From Phycisphaeraceae bacterium (lineage in GTDB: Bacteria; Planctomycetota; Phycisphaerae; Phycisphaerales; SM1A02), in the NCBI GenBank assembly GCA_019636755.1, contig JAHBWZ010000006.1, positions 1 to 64,000 on the forward strand: a stretch of DNA of 64,000 nt, in the 5' to 3' direction. Under the pieces are notes generated by a model. That model did no database searches. It was given only the letters and a program-made list of their open reading frames with translations, and had not been told where the DNA came from. Made by a program: the position numbers and the translations under genes. This document shows, in pieces, positions 18,510-42,781 of this stretch (position 1 is its first letter; each line of letters starts with the position of its first letter).

Positions 18510-18573
18510 GGCATCACCCCCACGGGGCATCACCCCCACGGGGCATCACCCCCACGGGGCATCACCCCCACGC
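18510..18573. repeat. four tandem copies of a 16-bp unit
   Basis: The unit GGCATCACCCCCACGG is repeated exactly four times in a row, the last copy differing only in its final base. It begins 27 bases after the stop of the sigma-54 activator. Copy number in such arrays varies by slippage. Confidence 0.97.
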
Positions 18574-18894: not shown

Positions 18895-20398
<1,504 letters not shown>

Positions 20399-38687: not shown

Positions 38688-38835
38688 CGATCCGCCCATG
38701 TGATCCGGTCAGGACCCGTCCGGACCCGCTCAGGATCCGATCGGGCTTCGATCCGACTCCGGTCCCGTCCGGCGCGCCCGTGGGCGCGGCGGTGGCCCGC
38801 ACCGCCGGCGCCGGCCGCACGCCGGCACGACCGGA

Positions 38836-39852
38836 TCACCCGTTGCTCACCCCCCCGATGGCCAGCTGCTTGCCCTTGAGGCCGAGCGCGTCCTCCCGCC
38901 GCCAGTCGATCAGCGACTGCATGCCTTCCTCCAGGTCGATCGACCAGCGGAATCCGAGATCGCGCTCCGCCGCCTTCGGGCAGCCGATCCGGTTCGTCAC
39001 GAAGGTGAGCCCTGCCTTCTCATACTGGATCTGCTGATCGCTCCCGGTGAGCGAGAGGAGAAGTTCAGCCAGTTCCCGCAGCGAGGTCCCGATGCCGCGT
39101 CCGACGTTGTAGCAGCGCCCCGGCGTGCCCCGGTCCATGGCCAGGACATTCGATCGCGCTACGTCGGTGACGTGCACGAAGTCATATCGCTGAGAGCCGT
39201 CGCCGAAGACGACCGGTGGCAGACCGGACTCGATCCGGTCCAGCATCCTGTGCATCACCGCGATATAGGCGCCCTTGTAGTCCTGCCGCGGTCCGTAGAC
39301 GTTCATGTACCGGAGCCCGATCCAGTCAAGCCCGTATCGCCGGCCGAGGCTCCGGAAGAAGTGCTCGCCCGCGATCTTGGTCGCGCCGTAGAACGTGTCG
39401 TTGTTGTACGGATGCTCCTCGGTCATCGGGATCTCGAGCGCGTCTCCGTAGACCGATGCCGAGGAGGAGTACACGACGCGCCGCACGCGATTGCGGATCG
39501 CCGCCATCGCGACATTGAAGGTCCCGCGGACATTGACCTCGAACGCGGTCTCGGGGTATTCGTGGCACTGCAGGATCCACAGCGCCGCCAGGTGGAAGAC
39601 CGTGTCACAGCCCTCCATGGCCTTCTCCAGGATGTCGCGCTGCAGGACGTCTCCGCCGTGCGGGAAGATCGTCACCCGCGGATCGCGCAGCGCCTCGGAC
39701 AGGTTGTGCAGCGAGCCGCGGAAGAAGTTGTCGTAGACGACGATCTCGCCGACATCGGTCTGCAGCAGTTCGTCGACGACGTGGCTGCCGATCAGCCCTG
39801 CCCCACCGATGACGAGGACCTTCCGACCCGACAGAGTGCTCTCGACCGACAC
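38836..39852 (-). CDS. NAD-dependent epimerase (UDP-glucose 4-epimerase-like)
   Basis: A 338-residue extended SDR. NAD binding is by VIGGAGLIGSHVVDELL, the active site is YSSSASVYG with YGATK, and GLRYMNVYGPRQ and YDFVHVTDVARSN are sugar-nucleotide epimerase signatures. It is the first gene of the main polysaccharide operon. I take the GTG at 39850-39852 (VSVESTLSG) as the start because AAGGAG lies 7 bases upstream. An ATG-initiated frame extends to 40110 and would read the tandem 16-bp repeats as a repetitive peptide, which is unlike the family. It supplies a modified nucleotide sugar for the glycosyltransferases. Confidence 0.9.
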   Translation of the reverse strand: MSVESTLSGRKVLVIGGAGLIGSHVVDELLQTDVGEIVVYDNFFRGSLHNLSEALRDPRVTIFPHGGDVLQRDILEKAMEGCDTVFHLAALWILQCHEYPETAFEVNVRGTFNVAMAAIRNRVRRVVYSSSASVYGDALEIPMTEEHPYNNDTFYGATKIAGEHFFRSLGRRYGLDWIGLRYMNVYGPRQDYKGAYIAVMHRMLDRIESGLPPVVFGDGSQRYDFVHVTDVARSNVLAMDRGTPGRCYNVGRGIGTSLRELAELLLSLTGSDQQIQYEKAGLTFVTNRIGCPKAAERDLGFRWSIDLEEGMQSLIDWRREDALGLKGKQLAIGGVSNG

Positions 39853-39864
39853 GCGTCTGCTCCT

Positions 39865-39960
39865 TGTTCCGGCTGATCCCTGTTCCGGCTGATCCCTGTT
39901 CCGGCTGATCCCTGTTCCGGCTGATCCCTGTTCCGGCCGATCCCTGTTCCGGCCGATCCG
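39865..39960. repeat. six tandem 16-bp repeats abutting the ribosome site of the epimerase gene
   Basis: The unit TGTTCCGGCTGATCCC occurs six times without gaps; the two copies farthest from the gene carry a C in place of one T, and the last also ends in G. The array touches the AAGGAG ribosome site (39860-39865, minus strand), so copy-number change would alter the 5' leader directly before the first gene of the polysaccharide operon. Confidence 0.97.
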
Positions 39961-40184
39961 GACTCGACCGGGAGTTCCGGGGACCTCGATGGCTGCGATT
40001 CCTCTCGGGATGCCGATCCCGGTGGCTCCGGACCGCGGCGGCGGATGCCTTCCGACGGCTCCCCGCGGGGTGCGGGGGACGGCATGGCGCAAGGCGGGTC
40101 GGCTGGTCACCGGCGCCGTACCCGGGCGTGGCCGCGGCCGGCCGGTTGCCGGGAGCCGAGGGTCGGATCCGCCACGACGTGCGG

Positions 40185-40213
40185 AAGATATGACCCCCCG
40201 TCGCGGGTGTCAA
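40185..40213 (-). promoter_or_regulatory. sigma-70 promoter of the main polysaccharide operon
   Basis: Minus strand TTGACA (40208-40213), 17-bp spacer, TATCTT (40185-40190). The start site would be near 40178, leaving a leader of about 325 bases that contains the tandem repeats before the epimerase start at 39852. Confidence 0.75.
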
Positions 40214-40347
40214 TGAACTCGGTGCCGTTGCTCACCGCGTCCGGCATCCTCATATCCTCCCGCCCATGACACGGCCACCGACGCGGCGGATGCACACGCG
40301 ACGCGCCCCGGAACCGGCGCGTTCCGGACGCGGCGGTACGTGAGGGC

Positions 40348-42336
40348 ATGTGCGGGCTGGCGGGCATCATCGCGGAGGCACCGTTCGACGGCTCGATCGC
40401 CGGCACGCTCTGCGCCGCGCTCCGCCACCGCGGCCCGGACGGCGCCGGGATACTCGTCGGATCACCCGATCGTCGACCGGTCCCGTCGTACGACGCTCTG
40501 CCGCCGCACGGTGGCGCCGGCGCGGACGCGCCGCGCGGCGCACGATATGCATTCGCGCATACGCGCCTCGCGATCCTCGACCTCACCGCGCACGCGCGGC
40601 AGCCGATCTGCACCGCGTGCGGACGGTATGCGCTCCTTTTCAACGGCGAGATCTATGACCATCTCTGTCACCGGCCGGACCTCGAGCGCGCCGGCGCCAC
40701 GTTCCGGTCGCACGGCGACGCGGAGACGCTGCTGGCACTGCTGGCGCACCGGGGCGTGCAGGCACTCGGCGGCGTCACCGGCATGTACGCGCTGGCGTTC
40801 ATCGACTTCGAGCGCCGCACCGTCACGCTGACGCGCGACCCCTTCGGCATCAAGCCGCTCTTCATCGCCCGCCGGCCGGGCATGACCGCCTTCGCCTCCG
40901 AGCCCGCCGCGCTGCTGCGCCTTCCGGGCATCCACGCCCGCGCCGATCATGCCCGGGCGCTGACCTACCTGCGATCCGGACTCACCGACCACGACGACGG
41001 GACGATGTTCGCCGGCATCGATCACGTTCCCGCCGGACATCTCGTGGAGATCCACCTGGACACCGGGCGGCCGGGGCCGCCCCGGCGCAACGCCGTGGTC
41101 CCGACCGCGCCACCACCCGAGTCGGGCGTGCATGCGGATCTCGCGAGCGCCGCGGCGGCCCTCCGCGCCCGACTGGAGGCGAGTGTCCGCCTCCACATGC
41201 TGAGCGATGTCCCGATCGGCACCGCGCTCTCCGGCGGCATCGACTCCTCGGCGATCATCGCGCTGATGCGCCGCGTGCTCGGCCCGGGGCCCGAGATCCA
41301 TGCGATCGGCTTCTGCGCGGACGATCCCGCCATCGACGAGACGCGCTGGATCGATCGCGCGGCCGAGGCCGCCGGTGCCCGGGTGATCCACGTGCGCGCC
41401 GATGCCTCCGGCCTCGCCGCCGATCTGTCCTCGCTCGTCCGCGCGCAGGGCGAGCCGTTCGGGTCAACAAGCCTCTTTGCTCAGTGGTGTGTCTTCCGCG
41501 CGGCGCGGGAACACGGCATCAAGGTGATGCTCGACGGCCAGGGCGCCGACGAACTCTTCGCGGGATACCGGCCGTTTGCGGCAGCGCGGATCGCGTCCCT
41601 GCTGCGCCGTGGACGGCTTCCGGCCGCGGCGCGTCTGCTGGGCTCGGCGGCGCACCTTCCCGGCGGCGGGCTCCGCCTGGGCGCCCGCGCCCTGCGCGAT
41701 GCCTTCCCGGCATGCGGCATCGCCGGCGGGGATCCATCGCTGATCGACCGCGGGCATCGGCGTCAGGGACGGCGCCGGGCGGAGACCCCGTGCCGCGCGA
41801 ACTCGCCGTGGGCCACGCGCGGGTCGGAGGTCCTGACCGATCAGCTCCGGCTCGCCGTCGAGCGGCTCAGCCTGCCCATGCTGCTGCGCTACGAGGATCG
41901 GAATGCGATGGCATGGTCCGTCGAGAGCCGCGTGCCGTTCTGCACGTCGGATCTTGCCCGATTCGCCTTCGCCTGCGACGAGTCCCTCCTGATCGGCAGC
42001 GACGGCATCGGCAAGCGCGTGCTGCGCCAGGCGATGCGCGGCCTTGTACCGGATGAGATCCTCGACCGGCGCGAGAAGATCGCGTTCGCCACCCCGGAAC
42101 GGGCCTGGCTTCCGGCCCTGCTTCCGCAGATCCGCGCCGCACTGATCGACGGGCCCGGTCGCGCCATTCCCCTGCTCGACCACGCCTCAGTCGTGTCCCG
42201 GATCGAACGGATCTCGCCCGCGCCGCCGGGCGCCGGCCGGTCAGCCCGGACGTTCGACCGCGCCGGCACCCCGGCGCTCTTCCGCGCCTGGTGTCTCGCG
42301 GCCTGGACGGAGACGTTCGATGTCCGGTGGTCATGA
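40348..42336 (+). CDS. asnB: asparagine synthetase (glutamine-hydrolysing), second copy
   Basis: A 662-residue class II amidotransferase, divergent from the main polysaccharide operon. It starts Met-Cys, giving the catalytic Cys after Met removal (MCGLAGIIAE). Motifs are LRHRGPDGAG, FAHTRLAILDLT, LLFNGEIYDH, TRDPFGIKPLF, the ATP loop ALSGGIDSSAIIAL, MLDGQGADELFAGYRPF and MAWSVESRVPF. It resembles exosortase- and polysaccharide-associated AsnB proteins more than a housekeeping enzyme, which is an inference from context. It is not a recent duplicate of the copy at 36586, since the two differ widely. A GAGGG element lies just before the ATG. Confidence 0.9.
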   Translation: MCGLAGIIAEAPFDGSIAGTLCAALRHRGPDGAGILVGSPDRRPVPSYDALPPHGGAGADAPRGARYAFAHTRLAILDLTAHARQPICTACGRYALLFNGEIYDHLCHRPDLERAGATFRSHGDAETLLALLAHRGVQALGGVTGMYALAFIDFERRTVTLTRDPFGIKPLFIARRPGMTAFASEPAALLRLPGIHARADHARALTYLRSGLTDHDDGTMFAGIDHVPAGHLVEIHLDTGRPGPPRRNAVVPTAPPPESGVHADLASAAAALRARLEASVRLHMLSDVPIGTALSGGIDSSAIIALMRRVLGPGPEIHAIGFCADDPAIDETRWIDRAAEAAGARVIHVRADASGLAADLSSLVRAQGEPFGSTSLFAQWCVFRAAREHGIKVMLDGQGADELFAGYRPFAAARIASLLRRGRLPAAARLLGSAAHLPGGGLRLGARALRDAFPACGIAGGDPSLIDRGHRRQGRRRAETPCRANSPWATRGSEVLTDQLRLAVERLSLPMLLRYEDRNAMAWSVESRVPFCTSDLARFAFACDESLLIGSDGIGKRVLRQAMRGLVPDEILDRREKIAFATPERAWLPALLPQIRAALIDGPGRAIPLLDHASVVSRIERISPAPPGAGRSARTFDRAGTPALFRAWCLAAWTETFDVRWS

Positions 42337-42381: not shown

Positions 42382-42455
42382 CGCGCCCGGGAGGATTCGA
42401 ACCTCCGACCTTCGGTTTAGGAAACCGATGCTCTATCCTGCTGAGCTACGAGCGC
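42382..42455 (-). tRNA. tRNA-Arg (anticodon CCT)
   Basis: A 74-nt cloverleaf. The acceptor arms GCGCTCG and CGGGCGC pair fully, allowing one G-U. The anticodon stem TCGGT/ACCGA encloses the loop TTCCTAA, giving anticodon CCT, which reads AGG. The T arm is GGAGG-TTCGAAT-CCTCC. The discriminator base is G, and the 3' CCA is not encoded. Confidence 0.95.
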
Positions 42456-42505: not shown

Positions 42506-42781
42506 TCAGGTGGAGCCCGGACCGGACTCCATGCGGGCCTTGATCAGGCGCTCGCCCTGCTCCGCCGTGATGGACCCCTCGGCGATGTAGGCGGCGATCT
42601 CGCGCCGCGACCGCTCACGCGCCGACGTCGCGAGGATCTGCCGGAGGGTGATGAGCGACGACCAGATGACGAACGTGACCGCCAGAATGACCGGGACGAG
42701 ATTCCTCCCGACCGCCTCCGAGAGGCCGCTCACGGAGGCGAATGCAGGACAGGCGTGTACGGTAATCTCAGCGATGAACAT
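42506..42781 (-). CDS. small membrane protein, unrecognised
   Basis: A 91-residue protein with one membrane helix (NLVPVILAVTFVIWSSLITL) followed by a basic stretch and a short C-terminal helical motif, REIAAYIAEGSITAEQGERLIKA. This tail resembles short domains found at the ends of many small bacterial membrane proteins, where the I-A-E-G-x-I-T pattern recurs. No function is known. It is divergent from the glycosyltransferase at 42963, with tRNA-Arg just downstream. ATG 42781 is the only reasonable start in frame. Confidence 0.65.
   Translation of the reverse strand: MFIAEITVHACPAFASVSGLSEAVGRNLVPVILAVTFVIWSSLITLRQILATSARERSRREIAAYIAEGSITAEQGERLIKARMESGPGST

Follow-up and report, generated by a model that had tools for sequence, protein, structure and literature searches.

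A 16-bp tandem array directly precedes the epimerase gene of what is likely a polysaccharide export operon in a Phycisphaeraceae bacterium, and the question raised by this locus is whether the array acts as a switch for that operon or is an ordinary intergenic minisatellite with a small or no effect on expression. The latter reading was found to explain the data best, with a probability of roughly 0.68. It was reached by scrutinizing the window (i.e., the whole stretch of 64,000 nucleotides that was analysed), a larger sample of the same genome, and orthologous loci elsewhere. The features of the locus are the following, with the units of the array listed in the direction of the epimerase gene (minus strand):

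40185–40213, minus strand: predicted sigma-70-type promoter, TTGACA-17-TATCTT (consensus scan)
39853–40178, minus strand: predicted leader of 326 nt, taking transcription to begin 7 nt downstream of the –10 hexamer
39854–39965, minus strand: 16-bp tandem array of 7 units, including the degenerate 5′ unit and the last unit that bears the Shine-Dalgarno (SD)
39950–39965, minus strand: degenerate 5′ unit, GAGTCCGGATCGGCCG
39934–39949, minus strand: unit with one change, GAACAGGGATCGGCCG
39870–39933, minus strand: four identical units, GAACAGGGATCAGCCG
39854–39869, minus strand: diverged last unit, GAACAAGGAGCAGACG (13 of 16 bases as in the core unit)
39860–39865, minus strand: SD AAGGAG, within the last unit and 7 nt before the start codon
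38836–39852, minus strand: NAD-dependent epimerase/dehydratase gene with a GTG start (Pfam PF01370, E-value of 4.2e-55)

The array was delimited by TRF at positions 39857–39959 (period 16, 6.4 copies, 96% matches, score of 178), and its five clean units, flanked by the degenerate 5′ unit and the diverged last unit, are near-identical head-to-tail copies beyond chance, as in a VNTR. The pattern of two successive units occurs at this single place in the genome. Of the 16 positions of the SD-bearing last unit, 13 are as in the core unit, a likeness that is equalled or bettered by only 18 of the 1,640,390 other genomic 16-mers, and this match indicates a common origin of array and ribosome-binding site, the site having either been duplicated outward or evolved inside the array. 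The first-pass annotation had described six copies that abut AAGGAG; the array itself proved real, while the AAGGAG is situated inside its last, diverged unit instead of merely next to it. At its 3′ terminus, the 16S rRNA gene of the window carries the usual anti-SD. The 64 kb gave no rRNA family match besides this gene (18901–20396), which is thus apparently unlinked to 23S and 5S there.

The GTG start of the epimerase gene (39852–39850) agrees with the gene caller and, within a few residues, with the N-termini of orthologues. By this agreement with the orthologues, the array is not part of the epimerase protein. The genes that follow in the same direction encode an asparagine-synthase-like amidotransferase, a Wzm-like permease, a Wzt-like ATPase, and sulfotransferase-like proteins. 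The permease and ATPase resemble Wzm/Wzt galactan or O-antigen exporters at NCBIfam scores below the curated cut-offs, and because of these scores the earlier label of polysaccharide export operon, which the gene set fits, is retained as likely rather than proven. A weak 10-bp array (3.1 copies, 81%) was also seen at 38708–38739, in the gap that separates the epimerase gene from the operon gene after it. A plasmid search with the epimerase returned distant relatives only.

Upstream of the array, a consensus scan of positions 39700–40450 revealed a single promoter-like match (shuffled sequences scoring 0.0 ± 0.2), located ca. 220 nt upstream of the array, and no terminator-like site. The leader of 326 nt predicted from this sigma-70-like match is in line with the leader of about 325 bases behind a strong promoter that had been annotated beforehand, and under this model the array probably forms the end of the transcribed 5′ leader. 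Folding of the leader was no better than that of shuffled sequences (z-scores of +1.31 and +0.44), and Rfam (gathering threshold, 64-kb window) returned only the 16S rRNA and one tRNA, with no match in the leader, so neither approach points to a structured RNA leader or riboswitch. The tRNA gene (42382–42455, minus strand) is situated between called genes at 40348–42336 (plus strand) and 42506–42781 (minus strand). The start of the contig carries a run of ca. 50 C residues (positions 8–57, 87%). No well-started upstream ORF was found: of the three starts that open an ORF across the array, ATG 40085 and TTG 40092 lack an SD (+0.4 kcal/mol each) and GTG 40110 has a weak one (–3.9 kcal/mol), vs. 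–7.2 kcal/mol for the GTG start of the epimerase.

The SD, the 7-nt spacer, the start codon, and the promoter all lie outside the clean repeats and are thus unchanged when units are gained or lost, so that a change in copy number should alter the length of the leader only, by 16 nt per unit. When the whole leader was folded with 3 to 12 copies, the SD had a predicted unpaired probability of 0.65–0.70 and a predicted opening energy of 4.4–4.8 kcal/mol throughout. At 0, 1, and 2 copies, the predicted unpaired probability was 0.21, 0.52, and 0.67, and the predicted opening energy 6.4, 4.0, and 6.7 kcal/mol, respectively. Because the predicted folding differs between 0, 1, and 2 copies, a big contraction could affect expression. 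Copy number was therefore not found to alter the reading frame, promoter spacing, or ribosome site in the manner of phase variation, with a predicted accessibility that is flat at 3–12 copies, though not at 0–2.

The orthologue loci examined numbered 14 of 100 (i.e., the ten best of 20 non-own loci and 4 of 80), or 13 distinct ones given that L009 and L048 are apparently the same record; L010 offered 249 nt of upstream sequence only. An array at the gene start was absent from all 14. By eye, a GGAG- or AAGGA-type site precedes the start in 11 of them, with none in L011, L014, and L015, and weak unrelated repeats occur up to 400 nt upstream in two (11 bp × 2.2 in L008 and 10 bp × 3.3 at 76% in L014). 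Likewise, a DNA search of 101 genomes with positions 39600–40347, considering five candidates per genome, gave matches in 22 genomes (own included), of which 7 other genomes matched in the coding part and the rest over at most 64 bases; among the matches listed, none covered the array. With the ribosome site and promoter unaffected by copy number, its predicted accessibility flat from 3 to 12 copies, and the orthologues examined lacking the array, the switch for the export locus that had been proposed was not borne out.

To place the array in its genomic setting, clean arrays (i.e., TRF units of 5–40 bp, a match rate of 93% or more, and 3 or more copies) were counted in 821,088 b of the genome (20%, window included), in stretches picked by position and not at random. 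This yielded 25 arrays, or 30 per Mb, and the same density without the window (23 in 757,088 b). To gauge chance, 449,413 b (including the window) were compared with ten resampled copies: the real sequence held 13 clean arrays with 3 or more copies, vs. 1 in all ten resampled ones combined. The units of the 25 arrays measured 7–17 bp and mostly differed from one array to the next, save at duplicated loci, and the arrays sampled stand beside genes without a known common function. According to a simple gene caller of our own (coding fraction of 0.83), 21 of the 25 were intergenic, with units of 7–17 bp that were a multiple of three in one case only. The remaining four were coding and had units of 9, 9, 12, and 12 bp, all multiples of three, as expected when slippage is filtered by the reading frame. 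Three relatives were sampled as well, and clean arrays were few or lacking in two of them (G009 with 2 in 400 kb and G031 with 0 in 400 kb, vs. 14 in G088). Missing mismatch repair was considered as a cause of the abundance of arrays and was unsupported, as a search for MutS_V gave one match above the cut-off. A dispersed repeat of ca. 150 bp (L136:3121–3270; 81–92% identical, with partial inverted matches) was also encountered; matches to it, some of them short, occur in 13 of the 41 stretches sampled from the genome, counting the stretch in which it lies.

The first-pass annotation had further taken the equal unit length of a second array at 18510 as a hint of a common 16-bp generator, and had suggested a genome-wide survey of such arrays. 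In the 20% of the genome sampled, 16-bp units accounted for 2 of the 25 clean arrays, both in the window, amid unit lengths of 7–17 bp. Moreover, TRF rows at period 16 formed the peak on resampled sequence (27 of 205, vs. 10 of 85 on the real sequence), and because these weak chance rows peak at 16 too, the equal unit length provides no clue; period 16 was thus rejected as a special class, and a shared generator tied to 16 bp was not supported. A general process such as slippage, unlinked to one unit length, may have made both arrays of the window. The second array (18510–18572) consists of 3.9 perfect copies and follows the end of a called gene by 27 bp and the 3′ terminus of the 16S rRNA gene by ca. 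330 bp; it is not near a start codon.

The position of the arrays relative to gene starts was also considered. Five of the 21 intergenic arrays were situated 0–30 nt from a called start, vs. 2.2 expected from random intergenic placement (P of 0.06), or six when one start-overlapping array was counted (P of 0.016), and the relatives gave 4 of 12 vs. 1.6 expected (G088, P of 0.07) and 1 of 2 vs. 0.3 expected (G009, P of 0.30); this bias is a weak hint only, because our gene caller is prone to putting starts directly behind arrays. Among the 601 sampled genes with 150 nt of upstream sequence, four had a clean array reaching –25 or closer. According to a published survey, bacterial short repeats lie mainly downstream of gene ends (PMC12699852).

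That such arrays change in copy number, as had been presumed for the epimerase array, was confirmed at duplicated loci elsewhere in the genome. Between loci with flanks that are 96–99% identical over 118–150 b, a CCGCGAT array differed by 8 vs. 12 full units and, by the same flank criteria, a GTTCGCG array by 8 vs. 2 and 2 full units. The copy number of the epimerase array probably differs between cells or strains. The GTTCGCG array (L144:2201–4250, L144:1–500, and L139:2530–2960, with 8, 2, and 2 units) is located between an SD-bearing ATG and a gene body whose start looks signal-peptide-like by eye, with flanks that are 96–98% identical. In a layout shared with this group, two genes that are 98% identical (ca. 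555 aa, no Pfam match; L142:1700–2200 and L158:2740–3200, on C7 and C13 of G000) carry before their called starts up to three arrays with 7-, 8-, and 12-bp units, the copies of which differ between the two, and in both the gene body is in a frame other than that of the upstream SD-bearing ATG. Across the four loci of duplicated heptamer-array genes (one of which is cut by the contig end), the gene body was off-frame from the SD-bearing ATG in 4 of 4, so that a simple on/off frame switch, with frames read from that ATG, was not demonstrated there.

Among known systems, the array resembles bacterial intergenic minisatellites or VNTRs in its near-identical head-to-tail units, the mostly intergenic position of such arrays, the frame-compatible unit lengths within genes, and the copies that differ between duplicated loci of this genome; unlike in those, the last unit doubles as the SD. 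In Moraxella catarrhalis uspA2, as reported in PMC4679880, 6–23 copies of the 4-bp unit AGAT are located in the 5′ untranslated region, and expression in one strain peaks at 18 copies. The tandem repeats are likewise situated between promoter and start codon (the promoter being a predicted one here), but the present unit is 16 bp long and had no predicted effect above 3 copies. The TAACTGA heptamers of marine Beggiatoaceae are likewise direct repeats that occupy the ribosome site, immediately ahead of start codons, but they involve one unit genome-wide and rarely an SD (PMC4679880), whereas the arrays sampled here differ in unit and the epimerase array keeps a strong SD. Haemophilus influenzae hmw1A shares a repeat tract before a surface-structure gene; its 7-bp units lie between the predicted promoters P2 and P1 and more copies lead to less expression (PMC8262952), whereas the predicted promoter here is ca. 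220 nt upstream of the array. Finally, the pil1 leader of Streptococcus gallolyticus likewise has its repeats between promoter and operon, and its GCAGA repeats are reported to act via a translated leader peptide and a premature terminator (PMC3894217), neither of which was evident here in consensus scans for a well-started leader ORF and a terminator.

A phase-variable or graded switch, in which, as with uspA2, the number of leader copies would set how much mRNA the export operon yields or how well it is translated, could be argued from the position of the array in the predicted leader of a likely surface-polysaccharide operon, from the mutability of arrays in the same genome, and from the effect reported for leader repeats on uspA2 (PMC4679880). 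This reading is nevertheless unlikely, given that the copies leave the SD, its spacing, the start, and the promoter alone, that the predicted SD accessibility hardly changes between 3 and 12 copies in a leader that folds no better than its shuffles, that the orthologues examined have no array, and that similar arrays occur throughout the genome beside genes without a known common function. We hold it to be very unlikely that a leader peptide from ATG 40085 crosses the array and alters initiation at the proper start, as in pil1. The frame of this ATG is indeed open through the array, and by computation the copy number modulo three would decide whether it stops 58 nt into the epimerase gene, stops 245 nt into it, or becomes fused to the epimerase; however, the ATG is devoid of an SD (+0.4 vs. 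–7.2 kcal/mol for the epimerase's own start), and positions 39700–40450 contain no terminator-like site.

Slightly less credible still is a role of the units as iterons for a regulatory protein or as ribosome decoy sites, even though they are identical, have a fixed 16-bp spacing, and, in duplexfold with the full 15-nt 16S tail, pair at –9.4 kcal/mol (core unit) and –8.2 kcal/mol (SD unit). The two-unit pattern is found nowhere else in the genome, and single units (at most 2 mismatches) occur at 15 places outside the array. A regulon was dismissed as an explanation for these 15 places (reversed control 0), since an order-3 Markov control predicts 10–20; three of the four that fall within the sample are inside called genes. 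Similarly, the pairing of –9.4 kcal/mol looked strong, but 12.7% of 19-mers drawn at random from the genome attain it; against just the CACCUCCUU core, the unit pairs at –4.4 kcal/mol, an ordinary value that 36.6% of random 19-mers reach. It is scarcely conceivable that the array is coding, with a true start further upstream and the repeats as an N-terminal extension: the epimerase frame is open back through the array to GTG 40110, but orthologous proteins start at GTG 39852 or a few residues from it, this GTG has a strong SD, and each 16-bp copy would shift the frame.

The ordinary minisatellite reading would have the 16-bp segment at the epimerase ribosome-binding site duplicated repeatedly, head to tail, via replication slippage or unequal recombination. 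Such growth leaves identical middle units and diverged end units, as are seen here. Gain or loss of units would then shift the length of the leader by 16 nt each, presumably with a small or no effect on expression.

The papers listed in a literature search included none on phase variation driven by repeats in Planctomycetes or Phycisphaera. If the array is indeed ordinary, it warns against inferring a switch from one array without a genome-wide count (ca. 30 per Mb in the sampled part of this genome). A broader and quite unlikely possibility is that some high-GC Phycisphaerales carry many unrelated, fast-changing minisatellites that are biased to ribosome-binding regions, so that leader length or the upstream frame would constantly be re-drawn in many genes, the export operon included, yielding diffuse genome-wide variation in expression rather than a few contingency loci. 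Were this to be true, the Planctomycetes would lend themselves to studying the influence of genome-wide repeat length on translation.
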